From NCBI GenBank assembly GCA_902825965.1, contig CADEDA010000004.1:262596-298930 (forward strand): a DNA stretch of 36,335 nucleotides. Direction: 5' to 3'. Shown here piece by piece: positions 7,587 through 36,290 of this stretch (position 1 is the first letter of the stretch; each line of letters starts with the position of its first letter). The notes beneath the pieces were generated by a model. That model saw nothing but the letters and a program-made list of their open reading frames with translations. It was not told the DNA's origin and searched no databases. The position numbers were made by a program, and so were the translations under genes. The DNA comes from an uncultured Gemmatimonadota bacterium. Its GTDB lineage: Bacteria; Gemmatimonadota; Gemmatimonadetes; Gemmatimonadales; Gemmatimonadaceae.

Positions 7587-10500
7587 CTACGGGTTCACGG
7601 TGATCGTCGGTGTCGTGTACGACGTGTAGTTGGTGTTGGAGACCGTGAAGGTACCGCTGCCGCCTCCGGCCAGTCGCCGGATGTAGAACGAAACGGCGTT
7701 CCCGTTCGCTGGGATCGTCACGCTCGTGATGACCGGGCTGCTGGCGCCGCCGGCGCGCAGCTCGAAGCCCGAACCGGCGACCGACAGGTCGAAGGTGGTG
7801 GCGGCCACCACGCTGCGGATGTTGGTGTCGGCGCTGCGCGCGTACAACGTGACCAGGACGGAGTCGCTGTTGACCGTCGTCGGCAGGCCACCGATGCCGT
7901 CGAGGCGCCCCAACGCCACCGCAACCGTGCCGCTGACGCTGTTGTGCCCGGGCGCCGTGGCGACGATGGTGTCGACGCCGAGCGCGACGCCGGTCAGGCG
8001 CACGCCGCCGAAGGAGGTGCCGGTGTTGAGCGTGATGGACGGCGGCGTGGCGCTGGTACCCGTGCGATGGGTCAACGTGACCTCAAGCGGCGTCAGGCGC
8101 GTGTGCGGGACGAAGACGTTGTGGTCCTCGTACTGTCCGACCGCGAGCGAGAGCGGCGACCCCCACCCCAGCGTGAGGTTCGGCTGCACCACGGCGACGG
8201 TGGTGGTTGCGCTGGTGTAGGCGTAGCTCGTGCCGCGGGGATCGGAGGCGGTGAGCGTGGTGGACCCGACCGCCGCAGGGATGAACCGCGCGCGGTTGTT
8301 GAAGTACTCGCCGGCCCGGATGACTACCGACACCGAGTCGATCGTGCCCGCCGCCGGGTTGGACGACGTGAGCGTGATGGGCACGTCCTCGCTGACGTAA
8401 TGCGCGCTGGTCCCGTCCGTGGCTTCGATGGTGACGGGGATGCTCGACGGCGGGGTGGTGGTGTTGACCGTGCCGCTGGACGTGATGCGGTACCGCGGCA
8501 GGACGACCTGCTGCGTGAAGCTCGCCGGGCCGTAACCCGGGGCCGAGGCCTGGATCTGCACGGTGCCGGTCTGATCCTGCGCGTCGATGCGGAAGTACGC
8601 GAAGGTCGATCCCGCCGCGATGGTCACGGTGGGCTGCACACGGGCGACCATCGTGTCGGTGGACACGAGGGTGACGACCAGCGGCGTCCCGATGGCGTTG
8701 GGGATCTGCACGTACGACGAGGACAGGAGTCCCGTCTGACGCATGCCGAGAATGGGCCGCGGGTTGTTCATGAAGAGCGACGGGCCGGTGACGGTGACGC
8801 TGTTCGTCGTCGCGCCGCTGTACCCGATGCCCGACGAATCCACGACCGACAACGTCGCGGTGCCCGGACCGGTGTAGCGGTAGCGCGGCTGCGCGAAGTA
8901 CGCGCCGCGCGGGATCATCACGGCGGTACTGTCGAACTGCAGCACTCCCGTGTTGCTGCTGAGCAATCCGACGCGGACGGAATCGAGCACGTAGTGCCCG
9001 GTTCCCACGCTGTCCGACGCCTGCACGAAGAGCGTCGTCGAGGGAGACGTCGTGGTGGCCGTCCCCGCGATCCCGCCCACGGTGTACCGCGGCGACGTGA
9101 CGACGATGATCGCGGTGTCGGGGTTGTAGCCCGGCGCCGACGCGATGAGGGTGTCGGTACCGCGGAGCATGCCCGCGAAGCCCAGGTACGCGAGGTTGGT
9201 GCCCGGCGCGATGCTCAGCGACGTGCTCGACAGCGAATCGACGGCCGGATTGCTGCGTGTGATGGTGACCGGGACGGCGACGCCTCGCGGAGTGGGCGTA
9301 TAGACGTAGTTCTCGTTCGACGGACGATACTGCCGCAGGCCGATGCGATAGGTCGCGAAGCTGAAGTTGAGCTTGGGCGTCTGCACCGTGAACGCGATGG
9401 TATCCGCGCCGCGGCCCGGTGACGTGCCGATGACGAGCGCGCTGCCGACGCCCACGGGCGTCATGCGCGCCGCGGTGGTGAAGTACTCGCCCGGCAGGAT
9501 CGTGTCCGCGGCGGTGACGGTCAGCACGGTCGGGTCACTCGAGACGTAGTTCACGATCACGGTGTCGAGCGTGTAGTGTCCCGAGTTCACCGTGCTGTCG
9601 CCGATGTAGGTCGTGATCCCGGAGGGGTTCGAGAAGTTGTCCACGGTGCCACCGCCGAACAGGTGGATCCGCGGGGACGTCACGGTCACCGTCGCCGTGT
9701 CCGGCTCGTAGCCCGGCGCGCTGGCGATGAAGGTCGCCGTGCCGGGCGTCAACGCATTCACGTTGAAGTACTGCAGGTTCGAGCCCGTGCCGATGGTCAG
9801 CGCCGTGGGCGCCGTCGCCACGGCGGGGCTGAGCGGCGTGAAGGTCACGTTGAGCGGCGAGAGCACGGCGTTCGGCGTGTACACGTACGCGTTCTGCTCG
9901 AACTGTCGCGCGCCGAGGCGGAGCGTGGTCCAGCTCAGCTGCAGCTTCGGCCCGACGAACGTGAACGTCGTCGAGTCGGTGCGATGGCCGCTGGCAGTGG
10001 CGTACAGCCGCGCCGTGCCGGGGTTGCCGCCGGATTCCACGCGGCCCGCGCTGTTGAAGTACTGCCCCGCGCCGATCGTGACGTTCGGCGTGAGAACGCG
10101 CAGGATGGTGGTGTCGCTCGAGCTGTACTGCACCGCGAGGCCGCTCGTGCGGTAGTTGGCGGAGCGGGTCGAGTCGGCCGCCTGCACCGTGACGCTGATC
10201 GGCGGTTGGGTGGTGTTGTACGTGCTGCCGCCCGAGACCACGAGGCTCGGCGAGGTCACCACGACATTGGACACGAACGTGGACCAGCCCGGCGCCGAGA
10301 ATGTGAGCGTGGCCGCACCGGCGGCGCGCCCGTCGTACCGGATGTAGGCGTAGCTGGTCCCGATCGGGATCACCACGGTGGCCGGCGCGGTGATGCGCGT
10401 GGTGTCGGAGCTGGTGACGGTGATGGTGAGCGGGACGGTGAGGTTCTGCGGCGTGTAGATGTAGTTGCCGTCCTGGTACTGCCCGGCGCCGAGGCGGATG

Positions 10501-13500
10501 TTCGGTTGCGTGAACGTGAGCGTCGCCGGTGAGACGGTGACGGTGGTGGCCTGGCCGCTGACGCCGGTCGCTGCCGGCGTGATCGTGGTGCTGCCCGCGG
10601 TCAGGCCGCGGATCACCACGTTGGCCGAGAGCTGGCCGGCGGGGATGAAGGCGGGATCCGGCGACACGCTGGCGCGGCCAGGGGTGCCGAAGGAGTACGT
10701 GATGAACGTGCCACCGGCCGGTGCGGGGTCGGTGAGCAGGATCTGCGTCGGGATCTCCTGCGTCACGATCGTCGAGTAGCTCGTCGTCGTGAACCGCACG
10801 GAGGCTTGCACGGCCAGCACCGCCGTGTCCGGCGCGAACGTCGCGCCCGCATCGGTGGCGATGATGCGTGTGGTGCCCGCGTTGCGCCCGCTGAGGAACA
10901 CGGTGCCCACCGTGGTCAGCGGCGGGATGGTCACCGACGTCGGCGAGAAGAACGCGAACGTATCCGCCACCGCGAGGTTCACGGTGACGGCCGTCGCGTT
11001 GGGACGGCTCAGGTAGACCGGGAAGCCGACGTTGGTCGCCGAACGCCCGATCGCCAGTGTGTCGCGGCCCCAGGAGAGCACGGCCGGCGCACTCGCGCTC
11101 ACCGTCACGGTGATGGCGTTGGAGGTGATCGCACCGCTGGTCGCCGTGACGGTGGTGCTGCCGAGTTCGACGCCCGCCACGACGCCGGCCGTGCTCACGG
11201 TCGCGATCGCCGGGTTCACGCTCGCGAAGGTGAACGTGCCGCCGGGGATGAAGAACCCGTTGGCGTCGAGTCGGCGCGGGGTGAGCACGGTCTGTCCGCC
11301 CACCGCCACGATCGCCGTGGTCGGGGCGAGGTCGATCGCCGTCATGACCTGCGCCACGCTGAGTGCGGCGGCGCCGGTCACACCCTGCGCGGTCGCCCGC
11401 ACGGCGGTGAAGCCGTTCGCCGCGGCCCGCGCCCGCGCGGTCGTCGCGCCGCTCGAGTCGAGGGTCGCCACCGAGGGATTCGACGACGCCCAGGTGAACG
11501 TAATGCCGGTCATCGCGACGTCGAGCGTGTCGTACGCCACGGCGCGATAGCTGCGGGACTGCTGCAGCGCGCTGAGCGTGAACGTGTCGGTCGCCACGAA
11601 CCCGATGGAGTCCCGGACCACGGCGATACGCGTGATCGGCGTGAGCACGCTGAGATTCGCGGTGCCGGTCACGCTGAGCGCGGTGGCGCGCACCTCGGCG
11701 GCGCCCAGGCCCACCCCGCGTGCCACACCCAGCGAATCCAGCGTCGCGACGGCCGGCGTGCCCGAGCTCCACACGAAGGTCGGCTGCACCGCCAGCGGCA
11801 CGCCGAGGCCGTCCACCGCGCTCGCGGTGAACCCGAACTGCGCACCGAGGTAGATGCTGCGGGTGCCCGGCGTCACGGCGATCGAGGCGAGGCGCTGGGC
11901 GACGACCACGCGGGCCGAGTCCCGCGTGCCGCCGGCCTCGGTGGCGACCACCCAGGTCGCGCCGTTGGTCACCGCGACCACGCGGCCGGAATCGTTGACG
12001 GTCGCGATCGCCGGGTCGCGGGAGAGCCAGGTGAACGCGCCCGGCACCACGGCGGCCGCCGCGTCACGTGCAGTCGCGACGAGCAGGCGGTTGGCGCCGA
12101 TCGCGGTGAGCGTGTCGAGTTGCGGTGCGACGGTGGTCGACGCCACGCCCGACGTCGCGGTCGCCGTCACGGCGAGCGGGGAGCCGGTGAGGCCCGCCGC
12201 GGTCACGGTGAGCGTCTGTACGCCCGGGGTGGCGCCCAGCGTCCACAGCACGCTGGCGAGGCCGGTCGCATCGGTGGTGTCGGCGGCCGCGGCGACGTTG
12301 CCGTTGGGCACACTGAAGCCGACGATCACGCCGGCGACGGGATTGTCGTACCCGTCCGCGACGCGCACCACCACCGGCTGCGCGAGCGCGGCGCCCGGGG
12401 CCGCCGCCTGGCCGCCGCCGGTGCTGAGCGCCAGCACACTCGCCGCGCGCGGCGTGATGGCGATCGCGGTGGACGTGTCGCTCGCCAGTCCCGCTGCCGT
12501 GACGAGCAGGCGATAGCCACTGCCGGCCCGCGTGAGGCGGAAGTTGTCGAAGCGCGCGAGGCCGGCGGTCGCCCGCACGCGCACGGGGCCGCTGAGGGTC
12601 GCGGCGTTGGGATTCACCGCGAACCCGAGGAAGACGGAATCGGCGAAGCTGCTGTCGCGCGCGCCACCCGCGGTGCGCGCTTCCACGAGCAGCGCCGGCA
12701 GGCTGTCGCCCGCCTGGTAGCTGGGGCCGAGCTCCTGCGTGATCACGAGTTGCGTCGCGTTGGCCACCACGGCGGTCGCACTCACCACGAGGTTGGCGAC
12801 GCCGGCGCTCGAGACGGTGACCGTCTGGGCACCGGCCGCGGCACCGAGGGTCCACGTGAACGACAGCTGTCCGTTGGCGTCGGTGGTCGCGGCCGAGGGC
12901 AGCACCGCACCGCCGCCGGTGGTCACCGCGACGTTCACGGCGGTGTTGGCCATCGGCTGGCCGTCGGTCGCGAGCAGTCTCACGACGACCGGCGCGGCGA
13001 GGGCGGCGCCGGGCGCGCCCGTCTGCGTGCCGCCCGACACGACGTTCAGCGCGCTCGGCCGCGGCAGGATCACCAGCGTCACGGTATCGGCCGCCGCCTC
13101 GGTGACGAGCTCCGCCGCGATGCGCACCGTGCCGCGCGCGCTCGTGGTGGTGCCGGCGCCGGCGGTGCGCGACGTGAGCGTCGCCCGGGTGAGGTCCAGC
13201 GAGGTGAAGACGATCGGCACACCGCTCATCGGCGCGCCCTGCCCGTCCAGAGCGGTCGCGGTGAACGTGAACGGATCACCCGCGACGACGGTCAGCGTCT
13301 CCGGAGTCACGGCGATGCCCGCCGCGTTCGCGCCGGGCCCGACGTAGGTGAGCGGCACCGGGGCCGGGGCCGGCGGCGGCGCGCCAGGTGCCCGCGGCGC
13401 GGCGAGCACGTCCACGGGCCCGCCCCGGAAGACGGTGTCCCCCGCGGCGTTCATGTAGGCCAGCGACAGCGCCAGCGTCTCGCCCGAGGCCGGTGCACCC

Positions 13501-13820
13501 GAGGAGAGCTGCACCCGGAGGTCGAGTGCGACGGAATCGGCGGTCGACGGGAAGTTCACGCTGGTGTCGAGCGCAACCGAACCGTCGCTGCGCCGGAACA
13601 CGACGCGCACGCGCTCGAACGGCACCACCGACCCCGCGCCCTCGGCCACACTCGCGATCGGTCGCGGATACTCACCGAGGAACGACAGCCCCGTCGCGAA
13701 GCGCAGTCCGGCGTCCGGTCCGGTGATCTCGCGGCCGCAGGACAGCAGCGAGAGGGCGAACGTGGCAGCGAGCGCCAGGATGCGGCGCGAGCGGTGCGGC
13801 AGACGACGGATGGTTGGCAT
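7587..13820 (-). CDS. Giant Ig-like repeat lipoprotein (2077 residues)
   Basis: A very large surface or periplasmic protein. The ATG at 13820 gives a lipoprotein signal with positive residues, a hydrophobic run and lipobox LLSC, acylated at Cys28; the ATG at 13871 would bury this signal. The N-terminal half is a string of bacterial Ig-like (Big1/Big2) domains with phrases such as VVVRLLATDGQPMANTAVNV, TDANGQLSFTWTLG, FTWASSNPSVATLDSSG and GVVAGVELGSTTVTAT. From about residue 1100 to the end there are five diverged 190-200-residue modules. No enzymatic motif or C-terminal sorting signal is seen. An adhesive or cell-surface stalk role is inferred from architecture. It has its own hairpin-bounded unit between the M28 operon and the VTT gene. 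Confidence 0.88.
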   Translation of the reverse strand: MPTIRRLPHRSRRILALAATFALSLLSCGREITGPDAGLRFATGLSFLGEYPRPIASVAEGAGSVVPFERVRVVFRRSDGSVALDTSVNFPSTADSVALDLRVQLSSGAPASGETLALSLAYMNAAGDTVFRGGPVDVLAAPRAPGAPPPAPAPVPLTYVGPGANAAGIAVTPETLTVVAGDPFTFTATALDGQGAPMSGVPIVFTSLDLTRATLTSRTAGAGTTTSARGTVRIAAELVTEAAADTVTLVILPRPSALNVVSGGTQTGAPGAALAAPVVVRLLATDGQPMANTAVNVAVTTGGGAVLPSAATTDANGQLSFTWTLGAAAGAQTVTVSSAGVANLVVSATAVVANATQLVITQELGPSYQAGDSLPALLVEARTAGGARDSSFADSVFLGFAVNPNAATLSGPVRVRATAGLARFDNFRLTRAGSGYRLLVTAAGLASDTSTAIAITPRAASVLALSTGGGQAAAPGAALAQPVVVRVADGYDNPVAGVIVGFSVPNGNVAAAADTTDATGLASVLWTLGATPGVQTLTVTAAGLTGSPLAVTATATSGVASTTVAPQLDTLTAIGANRLLVATARDAAAAVVPGAFTWLSRDPAIATVNDSGRVVAVTNGATWVVATEAGGTRDSARVVVAQRLASIAVTPGTRSIYLGAQFGFTASAVDGLGVPLAVQPTFVWSSGTPAVATLDSLGVARGVGLGAAEVRATALSVTGTANLSVLTPITRIAVVRDSIGFVATDTFTLSALQQSRSYRAVAYDTLDVAMTGITFTWASSNPSVATLDSSGATTARARAAANGFTAVRATAQGVTGAAALSVAQVMTAIDLAPTTAIVAVGGQTVLTPRRLDANGFFIPGGTFTFASVNPAIATVSTAGVVAGVELGSTTVTATSGAITSNAITVTVSASAPAVLSWGRDTLAIGRSATNVGFPVYLSRPNATAVTVNLAVADTFAFFSPTSVTIPPLTTVGTVFLSGRNAGTTRIIATDAGATFAPDTAVLAVQASVRFTTTSYSTIVTQEIPTQILLTDPAPAGGTFITYSFGTPGRASVSPDPAFIPAGQLSANVVIRGLTAGSTTITPAATGVSGQATTVTVSPATLTFTQPNIRLGAGQYQDGNYIYTPQNLTVPLTITVTSSDTTRITAPATVVIPIGTSYAYIRYDGRAAGAATLTFSAPGWSTFVSNVVVTSPSLVVSGGSTYNTTQPPISVTVQAADSTRSANYRTSGLAVQYSSSDTTILRVLTPNVTIGAGQYFNSAGRVESGGNPGTARLYATASGHRTDSTTFTFVGPKLQLSWTTLRLGARQFEQNAYVYTPNAVLSPLNVTFTPLSPAVATAPTALTIGTGSNLQYFNVNALTPGTATFIASAPGYEPDTATVTVTSPRIHLFGGGTVDNFSNPSGITTYIGDSTVNSGHYTLDTVIVNYVSSDPTVLTVTAADTILPGEYFTTAARMTPVGVGSALVIGTSPGRGADTIAFTVQTPKLNFSFATYRIGLRQYRPSNENYVYTPTPRGVAVPVTITRSNPAVDSLSSTSLSIAPGTNLAYLGFAGMLRGTDTLIASAPGYNPDTAIIVVTSPRYTVGGIAGTATTTSPSTTLFVQASDSVGTGHYVLDSVRVGLLSSNTGVLQFDSTAVMIPRGAYFAQPRYRYTGPGTATLSVVDSSGIGYSGATTNSVTVTGPSLFMNNPRPILGMRQTGLLSSSYVQIPNAIGTPLVVTLVSTDTMVARVQPTVTIAAGSTFAYFRIDAQDQTGTVQIQASAPGYGPASFTQQVVLPRYRITSSGTVNTTTPPSSIPVTIEATDGTSAHYVSEDVPITLTSSNPAAGTIDSVSVVIRAGEYFNNRARFIPAAVGSTTLTASDPRGTSYAYTSATTTVAVVQPNLTLGWGSPLSLAVGQYEDHNVFVPHTRLTPLEVTLTHRTGTSATPPSITLNTGTSFGGVRLTGVALGVDTIVATAPGHNSVSGTVAVALGRLDGIGGLPTTVNSDSVLVTLYARSADTNIRSVVAATTFDLSVAGSGFELRAGGASSPVITSVTIPANGNAVSFYIRRLAGGGSGTFTVSNTNYTSYTTPTITVNP
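7590..10510 (-). repeat. Five ~190-200-residue protein modules inside the Ig-like lipoprotein
   Basis: Modules begin at about residues 1103, 1291, 1482, 1679 and 1879 (near bases 10510, 9948, 9375, 8783, 8183). Each opens with an LGxRQ/LGAGQY segment and YVYTPN-like text, then TIGTGSNLQYF-like, ASAPGYxPDTA-like, a TSPR turn, HYxxD, SSDPTVL and GEYF segments. The last copy is the most diverged. DNA identity is low, so these are old protein repeats rather than recent duplications. Boundaries are approximate. Confidence 0.75.
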
Positions 13821-13876
13821 CGGACTCGAAGGTAGGATGGACCAGCCCCCTTCAACAAGGATGCAGGGCACAGAAG

Positions 13877-18274: not shown

Positions 18275-19081
18275 TCACGTTGAGGCCGGCGCGGCCCCGG
18301 CCCGAGTGGCGAGGACGCTCTCGACGAAGTTCCGCTTGGAATAGTCGCCGGCGCTCGCGATGCCCGTCATGTCCTCGCGGCCGAGGACGTGGTTCCGGAT
18401 CTGGTCCGCGGACCACCCCCTGTCGGCACCGGCTTCGATCGCGCCGATGGTCTCCTCCAGCCACTCCGCCTTGGCGCGCAGCAGCGCGACCGGGTCCCGC
18501 AGTGGCCCGCGGTGCGCGTCGAAGACGCGCGCGGGACGCAGGGCGACCAAGTCGCGCAGCGTCCGCACCTGCGCCCGCAGGTCCTCCCGCGGGTGCGCGA
18601 TGCGCAGTTTCACGCCGATGAACGCGTCGCCGGTGAAGAGGGTCTCGCGCGCTTCGTCCCACACCACGTGATGATCGCTGGTGTGCCCCGGTGCGGGGCG
18701 CAGCTGCAGCGCCGCGTGCGCGAACGGCGTGGGCGTCGCGGCGAGCGGCGGCGCGGTGCCCCAGCAGATGCGCCGGTACATGCCGATCGGTCCTGGGACC
18801 CGGATCCGGGCGAGGGTCGCGTCCGCGAGTCCCACCGGACAGCCCCGCGCGCGCAGCAACTCGACGTTCCCGGCATGGTCCTCGTGGGCGTGCGTGAGCA
18901 ACACCCCCTCGAGGCGATGGGCACGGAGCCAGGCCGCCAGGTCGTCGCGGACGCGGGGGAACAGCGTGTCGATCAACACGCCGCGCACGACGTACGCGCT
19001 CACCTCGTAGTCGATGAGCCGACTCACCCGCGTCCAGGCGCGGAGCTGGGTCACGTCGTCGTGCCGGAGGACCTGCAACAT
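18275..19081 (-). CDS. MBL-fold metallo-hydrolase
   Basis: A 268-residue soluble hydrolase with an intact metallo-beta-lactamase site: THAHEDHAGN (His64, His66, Asp68, His69), then APGHTSDHHV, LFTGDAFIG and a C-terminal DAHRGP that can give the last His. The C-terminal helices (LRAKAEWLEETIGAIEAG, DQIRNHVLGREDMTG) resemble those of RNase Z / glyoxalase II-like or LACTB2-type enzymes. Substrate is unknown. It starts at 19081, directly beside the divergent greA promoter, and ends 71 bases before the DUF3299 gene starts, so it may share a promoter region with greA and possibly lead that operon. Confidence 0.9.
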   Translation of the reverse strand: MLQVLRHDDVTQLRAWTRVSRLIDYEVSAYVVRGVLIDTLFPRVRDDLAAWLRAHRLEGVLLTHAHEDHAGNVELLRARGCPVGLADATLARIRVPGPIGMYRRICWGTAPPLAATPTPFAHAALQLRPAPGHTSDHHVVWDEARETLFTGDAFIGVKLRIAHPREDLRAQVRTLRDLVALRPARVFDAHRGPLRDPVALLRAKAEWLEETIGAIEAGADRGWSADQIRNHVLGREDMTGIASAGDYSKRNFVESVLATRAGAAPAST

Positions 19082-19083
19082 TC

Positions 19084-19112
19084 TTGTAGGATAGCGGTCC
19101 CACGGCTATACT
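19084..19112 (+). promoter_or_regulatory. Candidate sigma-70-type promoter of greA
   Basis: TTGTAG (19084-19089) and TATACT (19107-19112) are 17 bases apart. The -10 box matches TATAAT at five of six positions; the -35 box is weaker. Transcription would start near 19119, about 70 bases before greA and upstream of the leader hairpin. It lies 3 bases from the start codon of the divergent MBL gene. Confidence 0.5.
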
Positions 19113-19132
19113 GAGGGCAGCGAACGCTCCCC

Positions 19133-19169
19133 CCGGCGCCCGGCCACCACGGTCGGGCGTCGGATTTTT
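19133..19169 (+). terminator. Terminator-like hairpin in the greA leader (attenuator candidate)
   Basis: CCGGCGCCCGGCC (19133-19145) and GGTCGGGCGTCGG (19151-19163) form a 13-bp stem with two G-U pairs around an ACCAC loop, followed by A and five T (19165-19169). This is the best intrinsic-terminator shape in the window. No plus-strand gene ends nearby (the previous one ends at 6331), so it can only act on the greA leader transcript. Confidence 0.65.
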
Positions 19170-19189
19170 CTACGCCGCCGAGGCATGGC

Positions 19190-19669
19190 ATGATCGAAGC
19201 GCTCAAGCAGAAGCTCACCGACGAGGCGGAGAAGCTCCGCTTCGAGCTGAACGTCACGCTGCCCAACGAGATCCGCAAAGCCGTCGAACTCGGCGACCTG
19301 CGCGAGAACTCCGAGTACAAGGCGGCGCTGGAGCGGCAGCAGTTCGTGCAGGCGCGCCTCGGGCACCTCACGCAGCGCCTCTCCAAGCTGTCGGCCATCG
19401 ACGAGTCGCAGATCGCCACCGACGCGGTGGGGATGGGGTCCAAGGTCGTGGTGGAGGACACCACCACCAAGGCCAAGGAGTCGTATCACATGATCTTCGG
19501 TGACGCCGAGGACTTCGACGACGGGCAGGTGACGATGTCGTCCCCGATCGGCCGCGCGCTGCTCGGCAAGAAGGTCGGCGAACTGGTGCTGCTCAAGCTG
19601 CCCACGATGACGCGCAAGCTGAAGGTCGTGAAGCTCACGACCATCCACGACGACACCGAGCTGCTCTAG
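19190..19669 (+). CDS. greA: Transcription elongation factor GreA
   Basis: A 159-residue GreA. The N-terminal coiled coil carries the catalytic-tip motif GDLRENSEYKAALERQ, whose acidic residues bring Mg2+ into the RNA polymerase secondary channel to promote cleavage of backtracked RNA. The C-terminal FKBP-like domain shows VGMGSKVVVED, ISSPIGRALLGKK-type text (MSSPIGRALLGKKVGELV) and ends normally. A weak GAGG lies six bases upstream of the ATG. A two-codon reading frame (ATGGCATGA at 19185) overlaps the start. The stop TAG shares the palindrome CTAG (19666-19669) with the stop of the convergent TlpA-like gene. The leader holds a promoter and a terminator-like hairpin. Confidence 0.97.
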   Translation: MIEALKQKLTDEAEKLRFELNVTLPNEIRKAVELGDLRENSEYKAALERQQFVQARLGHLTQRLSKLSAIDESQIATDAVGMGSKVVVEDTTTKAKESYHMIFGDAEDFDDGQVTMSSPIGRALLGKKVGELVLLKLPTMTRKLKVVKLTTIHDDTELL

Positions 19670-32350: not shown

Positions 32351-33523
32351 TCATCCGAACTGGGGGACGGGGCAGTCATTCAAATAGAAGGGATCGACTC
32401 GCAGCCGACCGACCGGAACGTACACGTCGCCGACTGGAACGCGCGACTCGCCGACCGGAATGCCTGAGCCTCCAACCGGAACGATCCCATGACCAACCGA
32501 GACGATCGGGCGACCGACCGGGTTGATCGCGTCACCGACCGGATTGATTGCGCGACGGACAGGGTTGGTTGCGCACCTGATCGCATTGTCCTCACGACGG
32601 ACCGGAACATTCGAGCCACGGACAGGAATGCGGAGGCTCCCGACTGGAATGTCCGAGCTCCCAACCGGAATGTTCGCGCTCCCAACCGGACTGTCGGAGG
32701 TTCCGATCGGGTTGTCGGCGCCACCGACCGGATTGTTCAGCCTCCCGACCGAGTTGTCCGGGGTGCCGACCGAATCGTCCACGCTCCCGACCGAGTTCTC
32801 CTCGCGGCCGACCGGCTTGATCGCGCTACCAACCGGATTGATCGCGCTACCAACCGGATTGATCGCGCTACCAACCGGAATGTTCGCGCAACCAACCGGA
32901 TTGATCGCGCTACCAACCGGAGTGTGAACGCGACGGAGCGGGTTGTGCGCCCTGCCGCGCGGATTGTGACGCTCACTGCGCGGACGGTGCAGCTCGTGGA
33001 CGTGGTGGCGCGCCGGCGTGTGCGCGTGCCGCCGTGGCGATCGCAGCACGCGCAGCGTCGTGCGGCACTTTCGCAAGGACGGATGCCGCTTCCGCACCGC
33101 CGCGCGCCACTTCTGCACCGCCGAACGGTCGTTCAACAGCGCCGCGCGCGAGTCCAGCAGGGTCCTTCGGGAGTGCAGCAGGGTCCTTCGCGAGTGCAAC
33201 GGGGTCCCGCGCGAGTCGAGCAGCGTCGCGCGCGCCTGACGTCGGTGCGATCGCCGGTGCAGCCGTCTCGATCGGCCTTCCGATACGGCCGTCCGTAGCG
33301 GACGCGCACGGGCGGGGCGCTCCGACAACTCTCGCGTGCACCCCCTTCTATAGGAAGAGCAGGGCCCTGGACGAGCGACAGCAGCAGTTGGTGGACTCGT
33401 TGCTGCGTGTGCAGGCGTTCCTCGACGTGCATCCGGATCGCCTAGAGCGAGGCTCGCCCTCACATCTCCTATGGGCAGCTGACCCGCCAAGGAACTCGCC
33501 GAATCACGCCACGAACGGAACAC
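32351..33523 (-). CDS. Possible heptapeptide-repeat protein (uncertain)
   Basis: One minus-strand frame is open over the whole 21-bp tract and would encode 390 residues with about 40 heptads, first of the type RRTLLHS and later VGSAINP. A hand tally over nine units (32643-32831) gives G or C at 51, 34 and 39 of 63 for the three phases. The richest phase is the third codon position of this frame, and the poorest is its second, as expected for a coding frame in a high-GC genome. A plus-strand frame shares the same wobble phase but is broken by TGA codons at 32925-32927 and 32967-32969. Against coding: the N-terminal 95 residues are arginine-rich and unlike a real protein, and no Met lies near the repeat start. 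The gene may begin later, or not exist. Confidence 0.28.
   Translation of the reverse strand: MFRSWRDSASSLAGQLPIGDVRASLALGDPDARRGTPAHAATSPPTAAVARPGPCSSYRRGCTRELSERPARARPLRTAVSEGRSRRLHRRSHRRQARATLLDSRGTPLHSRRTLLHSRRTLLDSRAALLNDRSAVQKWRAAVRKRHPSLRKCRTTLRVLRSPRRHAHTPARHHVHELHRPRSERHNPRGRAHNPLRRVHTPVGSAINPVGCANIPVGSAINPVGSAINPVGSAIKPVGREENSVGSVDDSVGTPDNSVGRLNNPVGGADNPIGTSDSPVGSANIPVGSSDIPVGSLRIPVRGSNVPVRREDNAIRCATNPVRRAINPVGDAINPVGRPIVSVGHGIVPVGGSGIPVGESRVPVGDVYVPVGRLRVDPFYLNDCPVPQFG
32412..33251. repeat. Tract of ~40 units of a 21-bp tandem repeat in unbroken phase
   Basis: Starting at 32412, units of exactly 21 bp follow each other with no insertion or deletion to about 33251. The first 27 units share the pattern ACCGGNNTGNTCNCGCTNCC (type A); three of them (32832, 32853, 32895) are identical and 32811 differs at one base. 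The middle units are diverged, and the last four or so (33147-33230) share CGCGAGTGCAGCAGGGTCCT (type B). Because 21 is a multiple of three and stops are rare, frames on both strands stay open and read as heptapeptide repeats. The tract follows the anti-sigma gene and has lower GC than the genes to its left. The 32230-32411 lead-in shows nothing clear. Confidence 0.9.
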
Positions 33524-34018: not shown

Positions 34019-34632
34019 CGATTGACACGGATCTCAGTATGGGATGGTTGACTCGACGAACTATCGAAGTGGATTTCCGTGTCGACGTCGTGCTGTTTCG
34101 CGTAGAGGGACGCGAGTTTGACGTCACGCCGTCACTGCATGTCGCGTCCGGCGAGCGTCCTCGCCGTGAGCGCTTGCGTCGCGTTCACGCCATCGGCGAC
34201 CGCGATGGCTTTCCTCCTGAAGCGATCCACATCTATTTTCTCCAACAGACCGCGCTTCCACCGGATGTGGAGGACGCGAAGCAAGAGTACTTCGCCATTT
34301 GGTGGCGCCTGATCTTCGAGCTGATGGTGACAGGTAGTTCCCTGATTCCGCGAAAGCCTATCGTTCGCGTGTTCGTCCGGGCGCTCGCGAGCGATGCAAC
34401 GCGCGGCGAGACGGCTCAGATGATTAAGCGCGCGGCTCTCGAAGGAGGAGCGCACTCCGTGGACGTGACCGTGGAACGGGGAACAGCGCATCGGGCGCGC
34501 ACGGGCTAACGACGCTTGCTGCCGACAAGCGCAGGTGCGGTAGCGGTTGTGGGGCCGCCGCTCCACTTTATGGAAGGTCTGCAGCGGCCCCACAACCGCA
34601 TTTTATGGGAGCGCTTGCAGCAGAAGCACACG
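34013..34632 (+). mobile_element. Integron gene cassette 1 (620 bp)
   Basis: Bounded by the crossover points in the R' boxes at 34012/34013 and 34632/34633. It begins TTAGCC; its trailing attC has R'' GGCTAAC, the exact reverse complement of GTTAGCC. It carries one gene that ends inside that R'' box. Confidence 0.88.
34039..34509 (+). CDS. Cassette 1 protein, unknown; faint MreB-like resemblance
   Basis: A 156-residue protein filling cassette 1, starting 26 bases after the crossover point. Its stop TAA lies inside the R'' box GGCTAAC of the following attC, a tight fit typical of cassettes. There is no signal peptide. The order IEVDFRVDVVLFRVEGREFDVTPSLHVASG, then RLRRVHAIGD, then RKPIVRVFVRALASDATRGETAQMIKRAALEGGAHSVDV recalls the N-terminal part of MreB-like proteins (xPRVVVxVPxxxTxxExxAxxxAxxxAGAxxV). 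From memory, small proteins labelled 'rod shape-determining' do occur in cassettes. This is weak pattern similarity, not an identification. GC content is lower than in the chromosomal genes. Confidence 0.8.
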   Translation: MGWLTRRTIEVDFRVDVVLFRVEGREFDVTPSLHVASGERPRRERLRRVHAIGDRDGFPPEAIHIYFLQQTALPPDVEDAKQEYFAIWWRLIFELMVTGSSLIPRKPIVRVFVRALASDATRGETAQMIKRAALEGGAHSVDVTVERGTAHRARTG

Positions 34633-34638
34633 TTAGCT
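34504..34638 (+). other. attC site A (135 bp)
   Basis: R'' GGCTAAC (34504-34510) and R' GTTAGCT (34632-34638) bound an imperfect palindrome. The central arms are GCGGTTGTGGGGCCGC (34543-34558) and GCGGCCCCACAACCGC (34584-34599), a perfect 16-bp match. Outer arms pair CGCTTGCTGCC with the GCAGCAGAAGC side. Crossover is expected between G34632 and T34633. The conserved segment GCATTTTATG lies at 34598-34607. Confidence 0.92.
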
Positions 34639-35664
34639 GGACCATCCGGCCTCCATCGTACTCATGGACACGCACGTCTGGCTTCCGCCTTCGGATTCCT
34701 CGCAGCAGCGTGCTCTCGCACATATGGCAGCGCGCAGCCGGGGTGGTCCGCTTGATCCTACCGTACGGGTAACGATCAATTTTCATCCCGCCAGACTGCA
34801 CCAAGGCGCCCCACTGCTTCGGTCCCTTGCGAGAGACGGGGATTACCGCTCGCAGTTCGAGACGGGCACCGGCAATGGAAGCCTCTCGGCATTTCCGGGT
34901 GGCGAGCGCTGGCAGTGGGAGACTCGGCTCTTCGGCGGTGCCTATGACGCCGCGTCCGCCAACGAGCGTCCGAAAGTGGGCGCGCTCAACTTTCGTCGCC
35001 GCGCTACCGGAGCGGCCCCGCGGTACGGTTCTGCCTATCTGCGGCTTCGGCCAGAGGTCGCGCCGCGCTGCACATTCTGCTTTCCTGATTCCTGCTTCGA
35101 GCCGTCCGCATTCGGTACGGCGTCTCGCATGAGTCTCATCGACCTCGCCGCAGGGGAGCAGCGGGACCGCCTCGACGACTACGTCGAAACGCACGTGCAT
35201 GGTCCCGTGCGCCTTGCTGTTGACGTCGAGGCGCTGGTCCTCGATCCCTGCTTCCGCGATACCGAGGTCGAAGAGCTCGCACGCCAACTCCCCTGTCCTC
35301 TTGAATGGCATCCGGGCTTTCGGCTTCATGTCGACGAGATGGCGCAACATCCGAGCTATCGTGGTCCGGAGTACGTGGTGCTCGGACGATCGGTGGCCGT
35401 CGATGGATGGCTCACGCCCGCCATCCTTGAAGTGGCGGTGCGTTCGGAACGCCATCACCCACAGGACCTCAAGAAGGTCTGGCACTACCTGGCTCGCTTT
35501 GGTGACCAATCGCCAGAGTGAGATCGCATCGCGGCCAGCTAACGGCAGTTGGTGACCGACGGCCGTCTAGGGTAGCAGGTGGGCGGCCGCGCCTTGTCGT
35601 ACCTTTCGGTACGGCGCGGCCGCCCACCTGCATTTTATGAAAGCGGCCGCGGCACAACTTGACG
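34633..35664 (+). mobile_element. Integron gene cassette 2 (1032 bp)
   Basis: Begins TTAGCT after the crossover point; its trailing attC has R'' AGCTAAC, the exact reverse complement of GTTAGCT. It carries the DUF3626 gene. Confidence 0.9.
34664..35521 (+). CDS. DUF3626 family protein (cassette 2)
   Basis: A 285-residue protein of the DUF3626 family. Diagnostic stretches are VRVTINFHPARLHQGAPLLRSLARDGDYRSQFETGTGNGSL, FPGGERWQWETRLFGGAYDAA, RPKVGALNF and APRYGSAYLRLRPEVAPRCTF(C)FPDS. The C-terminal part (VETHVHGPVRLAVDVEALVLDPCFRDTEVEELA, then EWHPGFRLHVDEM) contains His/Asp/Glu residues. Function of the family is not known to me; from memory it is recurrent in integron cassettes of soil and marine bacteria. 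The gene starts 31 bases after the crossover point and ends 15 bases before the R'' box. No promoter is seen, so expression depends on upstream cassettes. Confidence 0.85.
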   Translation: MDTHVWLPPSDSSQQRALAHMAARSRGGPLDPTVRVTINFHPARLHQGAPLLRSLARDGDYRSQFETGTGNGSLSAFPGGERWQWETRLFGGAYDAASANERPKVGALNFRRRATGAAPRYGSAYLRLRPEVAPRCTFCFPDSCFEPSAFGTASRMSLIDLAAGEQRDRLDDYVETHVHGPVRLAVDVEALVLDPCFRDTEVEELARQLPCPLEWHPGFRLHVDEMAQHPSYRGPEYVVLGRSVAVDGWLTPAILEVAVRSERHHPQDLKKVWHYLARFGDQSPE

Positions 35665-35670
35665 TTAGGG
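35537..35670 (+). other. attC site B (134 bp)
   Basis: R'' AGCTAAC (35537-35543) with L'' around GCAGTTGGTG; L' GCACAACTTGAC and R' GTTAGGG (35664-35670). The central stem is a perfect 19-bp match (35575-35593 with 35613-35631), with a smaller GTACC-TTTC-GGTAC hairpin in its loop. GCATTTTATG at 35630-35639 is shared with site A. The ATG inside it is in frame with the cassette 3 gene. Confidence 0.94.
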
Positions 35671-36284
35671 CGAGCAGACCGAGATCTATGCTAGGCCAGC
35701 ATATTCTGAGATTCGAGCTTCCGATCGCTGCCGCGGAGTTCGAGCGTCGGCTTGAGGCGCTCTTGGCCAGGCCGACGGGACGGATGTACTCCGGTGAGCT
35801 TTCGTTCACCGGCCGGGTCGCGAGCGGTCTCGTCCAGATGCGCGTGCGCCGACTATCACGCCAAGCACTACGCCTGCGGGTCGAAGGCAGTTACGAGGCG
35901 ACGTCAACCGGCGTCGCGTTTCGTGGGAGGACGCTGCCTTCTACGGAGACCTACCTCCCTCTCGCGCTCTTGCTCGCCGCGCCGATCTCTCTGTCTTTCG
36001 GCAGCCCGGCGTCGCTCGCCCGGAATGGTTGGATCGGACTCGGCATCTTCGTCCTTCTCGCGGTCGCGTTGCACTTGTACCTGCTCGTGCGCTTGGGCGA
36101 GCGCGTCGAGCGTGAGTTGCTTGAGTTAGCGCAGTAGGCGGAGAACTGTGCGCGCCGCCCTAACGACAGTTGGTGCTGATGGCCGTCTGGGGTAGCGGGT
36201 TGGCGGCCCCGGCCTCATCGTACTTCAGGGTCGGCCGTGGCCGCCAACCCGCAATTATTGGATCGGCCACAGCACAACTCGACG
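35665..36284 (+). mobile_element. Integron gene cassette 3 (620 bp)
   Basis: Begins TTAGGG; its trailing attC has R'' CCCTAAC, the exact reverse complement of GTTAGGG. It carries a small membrane protein. Confidence 0.9.
35688..36137 (+). CDS. Cassette 3 protein: small membrane protein of unknown function
   Basis: A 149-residue protein starting at the ATG 35688, 24 bases inside cassette 3. An in-frame ATG at 35637 lies within the preceding attC and would add 17 residues across the recombination junction; the internal start is preferred because it lies wholly in the cassette. The N-terminal half (LRFELPIAAAEFERRLEALLARPTGRMYSGELSFTGRV, VRRLSRQALRLRVEGSYEA) is a soluble, beta-rich domain. The C-terminal half has two spans, LPLALLLAAPISLSF and WIGLGIFVLLAVALHLYLLVRL, followed by a charged tail. 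No family recognised. It may report or attach to the inner membrane. Confidence 0.78.
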   Translation: MLGQHILRFELPIAAAEFERRLEALLARPTGRMYSGELSFTGRVASGLVQMRVRRLSRQALRLRVEGSYEATSTGVAFRGRTLPSTETYLPLALLLAAPISLSFGSPASLARNGWIGLGIFVLLAVALHLYLLVRLGERVERELLELAQ

Positions 36285-36290
36285 TTATGG
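36158..36290 (+). other. attC site C (133 bp)
   Basis: R'' CCCTAAC (36158-36164), L'' ACAGTTGGTGC, L' GCACAACTCGAC and R' GTTATGG (36284-36290). The central stem is GCGGGTTGGCGGCC (36195-36208) with GGCCGCCAACCCGC (36239-36252), a perfect 14-bp match. Its left half is close in sequence to site B (AGTTGGTG...GGCCGTCT.GGGTAGC.GGT.GGCGGCC). Confidence 0.94.

Follow-up and report, generated by a model that had tools for sequence, protein, structure and literature searches.

The greA leader of Escherichia coli and the GraL RNAs that arise from it were reportedly described by Potrykus in 2010. GraL is also among the closest described counterparts of the element analyzed here. In E. coli roughly two thirds of transcripts end at GraL, and in cells without greA the amount of GraL falls about fourfold, a response that needs catalytically active GreA (Dylewski 2019, PMC6829880). 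According to the sections of that paper drawn on here, changes in the tail or arm of the GraL hairpin abolish most of the GreA response while termination persists; the effect of GreA on GraL is seen in vivo and not in vitro, and an extra factor is invoked for the control of the leader terminator by GreA (PMC6829880). Premature terminators upstream of greA are known in E. coli, and they have been predicted for Proteobacteria, bacilli and Clostridia (Naville and Gautheret 2010, PMC2965389), the greA/rnk-leader attenuators forming the gene family ranked seventh in that survey. Gemmatimonadota go unnamed among the greA cases in the sections of PMC2965389 drawn on, and a literature search, based mainly on result listings, found no report of a greA-leader terminator in this phylum.

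Here we examine a window (the whole stretch of DNA analyzed, 36,335 nucleotides) from contig C4 of a Gemmatimonadaceae MAG (4.07 Mb in 73 contigs), whose closest named relatives are likewise Gemmatimonadaceae MAGs. The greA message of this genome, encoded by the gene that is its sole GreA match, probably carries a built-in polymerase stop, as in E. coli. The features of the locus are as follows.

18275..19081, minus strand: divergent upstream gene for a metallo-beta-lactamase-fold (MBL-fold) protein, start at 19081; context, outside the element
19084..19089, plus strand: predicted -35 element TTGTAG (sequence; TTG(CCC)-17-TANNNT layout in relatives)
19107..19112, plus strand: predicted -10 element TATACT, spacer 17 (sequence; layout in relatives)
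19119..19169, plus strand: predicted terminated leader RNA, about 51 nt (from the positions of promoter and T-run)
19133..19163, plus strand: hairpin of 13 bp with a 5-nt loop, CCGGCGCCCGGCC-accac-GGTCGGGCGTCGG (scan and fold; conserved, covarying)
19165..19169, plus strand: TTTTT of the predicted intrinsic terminator (sequence; T columns in relatives)
19180..19183, plus strand: GAGG, a possible Shine-Dalgarno sequence of greA outside the hairpin (sequence, inference)
19190..19669, plus strand: greA, 159 aa (Pfam PF01272/PF03449)

An earlier note on this DNA had described a 13-bp stem with a 5-base loop and five T between a TATACT promoter and greA, and this is confirmed: the arms (19133-19145 and 19151-19163) form 13 pairs, 11 of them G-C, around a loop at 19146-19150, and a single A precedes the T-run. 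Between 17500 and 21500 three terminator-like sites are found versus 0.9 expected from shuffles, the greA-leader site being by far the best, and the region 19115-19190 folds at -42.4 kcal/mol (z -2.8). The predicted start site near 19119 lies 14 nt 5' of the stem, and the leader RNA of about 50 nt envisaged in the note is accordingly predicted, from promoter and T-run positions, to extend from about 19119 to 19169. The note was also right that no plus-strand gene upstream needs a terminator, the MBL-fold gene being on the minus strand; the 3' neighbor of greA, a thioredoxin-like gene, is on the minus strand as well. The same scanner recovers the GraL terminator of E. coli. A promoter scan with a fixed consensus did not report TTGTAG-17-TATACT, whose -35 element matches at 3 of 6 positions. 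An Rfam search of the window and the loci of eight relatives returned nothing at gathering score, and membership in tfoR (RF02100) was rejected (23.1 bits versus a gathering score of 70).

The hairpin is widespread in the family. From 80 named loci and the window we obtained 79 distinct greA leaders, after dropping L046 (no upstream DNA) and L063 (a duplicate). A strict scan finds a hairpin with a T-run in 73 of the 79, and by core match it is recognizable in 77; scanner scores of at least 11 are reached by 72/79 leaders versus 11/790 dinucleotide shuffles, and scores of at least 15 by 58/79 versus 0/790. Alignment A1 comprises 77 leaders, L094 and L096 having been removed by eye beforehand; L033 was kept, its core match being as poor as theirs but accompanied by a 7-bp stem and a T-run. 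A covariance model (R1) built from these 77 leaders was run on 61 genomes with matches listed to E ~0.006: among the matches listed, one adjoins greA in at least 34 of 37 family genomes and in none of the 24 genomes from two sister families, and a targeted search added weak greA-adjacent matches in a further family genome (L199, the 35th) and at the sister-family loci L181 and L208. In a second set of 51 loci (no start for L017, L025, L251, L257 and L260), which overlaps the named loci and was kept out of the statistics, the core occurs in 42 of 46 readable leaders, the match in L254 looking spurious. Since the hairpin is absent from L094, L096 and the family genome G022 (L200), it is dispensable; in L200 tandem GTGATTAGT-like repeats fill the leader. 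T-runs are poor in L071, L076 and L108, the stem is degraded in L033, and a termination score is zero or below in 10 of 77 leaders.

Several features point to selection on the RNA. Compensatory stem changes, for which the earlier note looked to the leaders of relatives, are present: on the greA tree, 14 double and 43 single changes in 11 pairs preserve pairing, next to 29 losses, and controls with slid partners yield 0-1 double changes. In the aligned stem 88.3% of cells are paired, with both sides changed in 64 cells versus 28 in shuffles. G-U cells outnumber A-C/C-A cells in the inner ten pairs (59 versus 10), which argues that it is the plus-strand RNA that pairs. The loop beyond the 13 pairs is variable (2-11 nt), and four T columns are 86-99% T across the 77 leaders. 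Taken together, the covariation, the strand fit of the G-U pairs, the variable loop and the conserved T-run argue for an RNA intrinsic terminator under selection; on this comparative evidence the hairpin in the greA leader is evidently kept as an RNA structure. The stem core GCGCCC/GGGCG is near invariant, and five central pairs (CGCCC/GGGCG) show very little variation, so that either the sequence is important as well or this is just a favored stem. The 5' tail of the leader (columns 8-12) carries about 0.2 bit or less, and the loop is likewise unconserved.

Such hairpins are rare upstream of genes and not peculiar to greA in sequence. Across 398 kb of the same genome, a comparable site lies within 200 nt upstream of 3 of 333 crudely called genes. 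The three sites are the greA hairpin, an attC-like hairpin close to the end of the window, and a 3' terminator that follows a MoxR gene. In the genome of the window the core pattern matches twice, and just one of these copies is terminator-like, the other having no T-run. Several genomes also have a GCGCCCGGCC-type stem 3' of stop codons at unrelated genes, and because the core thus serves as a 3' terminator at other genes, reading the stem sequence as a greA-only signal is weakened. The two 3' terminators that were traced turn over quickly: that of fabI is kept in 1/18 and that of MoxR in 4/18 with unrelated stems (no anchor was obtained at six FabI loci and a single MoxR locus), and the 3' end of greA itself has a terminator in 1/77.

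Other parts of the window hold features of their own. Three attC-like integron sites (34507-34636, 35540-35668 and 36161-36287), with TAACG...CGTTA ends and a long hairpin (z -8.4), flank open reading frames at 34664-35521 (DUF3626) and 35637-36137 (without a Pfam match); we take these sites to be attC by comparison with the consensus. The segment 34507-36287 would then be an array of gene cassettes truncated at the contig end, and contig C32 of the same genome encodes an integron integrase (TIGR02249, 412.7 bits). A 2094-aa protein (7587-13871, minus strand) combines bacterial Ig-like and macroglobulin MG4 domains, and about 18 diverged copies spaced 21 nt at 32406-32982 are perhaps a 7-residue protein repeat.

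The arrangement of promoter and hairpin recurs in relatives. A promoter 5' of the hairpin scores at least 7 in 71/77 leaders versus 11.6% of shuffles, a comparison that is partly circular because the matrix was drawn up after viewing the same leaders; its spacer is 17 in 62 of the 71. From predicted start to stem core the median distance is 8 nt (quartiles 5-11), and the predicted leader RNA of the family has a median of 44 nt (41-49). Between hairpin and ATG, promoter-like sites are found in 0 of 77 leaders. The upstream gene, by crude calls, is on the opposite strand in 46/76 and on the same strand in 30/76, and since it may lie on either, it is greA, rather than the neighbor, that the hairpin accompanies. 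With a median of 8 nt between start site and core, there is no room for an aptamer, an antiterminator or a leader peptide, so that any sensing would fall to the polymerase and its factors. When 20 nt 5' of the core were folded together with the 5' arm and loop, the best alternative had a median of -6.7 kcal/mol versus -24.8 for the hairpin and reached half of the latter in 5/77 leaders; given so weak an alternative and so short a 5' tail, an antiterminator is rejected as a general feature, and attenuation, which the earlier note had suggested, is not upheld in the classical sense of alternative RNA structures. That GreA extends N-terminally across the hairpin was likewise rejected: loop lengths differ by single bases, and in L003 the open frame is just 160 aa.

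We consider the element likely to be a promoter-proximal intrinsic terminator that throttles greA. RNA polymerase would start near 19119, and the GC-rich hairpin would form almost at once; a share of complexes would stop in vivo at the T-run of the leader, releasing a leader RNA of about 50 nt, and the remainder would read on into greA, the level of escape presumably being set by the elongation complex and its bound factors. By analogy with GraL of E. coli, abundant GreA may increase termination and thereby limit its own synthesis, a feedback to which we give somewhat less than an even chance. More doubtful still is the wider proposal of a minimal polymerase-sensing attenuator at greA in distant phyla, in which the early elongation complex would be the sole sensor, the level of GreA would set escape at a hairpin near +45, and the stem would be tuned to backtracking, whether through deep ancestry with stem turnover or through repeated evolution.

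Four other readings of the hairpin were weighed. Were it a 5'-end stabilizer that shields greA mRNA from decay without termination, its position would suit, as in most leaders the core starts about 3-18 nt from the predicted 5' end, like stabilizing stems; yet a stabilizer does not need the T-run that is so well kept, and we regard this reading as unlikely. The near-invariant core would fit a DNA operator, a palindrome for a dimeric repressor just 3' of +1, but half-site spacing (the loop length) is free to vary, most imperfect pairs are G-U on a single strand, and the T-run is almost always attached; this reading is highly improbable, and loop length and the strand bias of the G-U pairs led to its rejection.

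Intrinsic terminators are commonly intergenic, and the hairpin might instead insulate greA against read-through from upstream or antisense transcription, as the 30 leaders with a same-strand upstream gene would allow; a promoter 5' of the hairpin with none seen between hairpin and ATG, together with a divergent upstream gene in 46/76 (the window included), makes such an insulator or 3' terminator very unlikely. A trans action of GraL is known from E. coli (PMC6829880) and lends some plausibility to a trans-acting small RNA as the main product (as GraL on nudE), with the effect on greA secondary; here neither 5' tail nor loop is conserved, so no kept seed is visible, and we hold this reading to be quite unlikely.

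Beyond the family, 23 leaders of two sister families were read at fixed coordinates (17 from f2, 6 from f3). Scores of at least 11 are reached by 6/17 in f2, where three hairpins lie 25-30 nt from the start codon and those of L164, L178 and L179 lie 76-83 nt upstream of greA and may fall outside the transcript, and by 0/6 in f3. In L178 and L179 a hairpin of 13-14 bp about 76 nt 5' of greA is followed by ACCTTGTTTT, in which TACCTT also resembles a -10 element, the hairpin apparently overlapping the promoter. Elsewhere in the class, 6/20 leaders from other families have a terminator-like hairpin with different stems; the background of terminator-like upstream sites is about 1%. Within the class, terminators thus seem to be enriched in greA leaders, and the stem is family-specific.

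What the present analysis adds to the known greA leaders is a predicted terminator in another phylum that is deeply conserved, covarying and without an antiterminator. A clade this distant, which matches E. coli in geometry but has another, near-invariant stem and lacks an antiterminator, offers a clean comparative test: features common to the E. coli and Gemmatimonadaceae leaders are candidates for the mechanism of GreA control, and an RNA of about 50 nt is predicted in Gemmatimonadota. Compared with ordinary 3' intrinsic terminators of Gemmatimonadota, the greA element has the GCGCCCGGCC-type stem in common; those terminators stand at scattered genes, and the two that were followed are not kept, whereas that of greA is fixed in the leader. 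With the attenuators of Naville and Gautheret (2010, PMC2965389) it has in common a premature terminator upstream of greA, but the parts of that survey drawn on describe a clear antiterminator in each case, for which the leader in the window has no room. The GraL-like layout proposed in the earlier note agrees in geometry: in both systems an intrinsic terminator lies between promoter and greA, the upstream gene is divergent (dacB in E. coli), the 5' tail is short (19 nt in E. coli, 14 nt in the window), and the RNA is about 50 nt (predicted here), GraL transcripts of 37-59 nt, whose ends are imprecise, comparing with 51 nt predicted for the window and a family median of 44 nt. The stem sequence is unrelated to that of GraL, and model R1 gives no match at the E. 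coli greA locus (L282), so that it is the layout, and not the stem, that the two leaders have in common.
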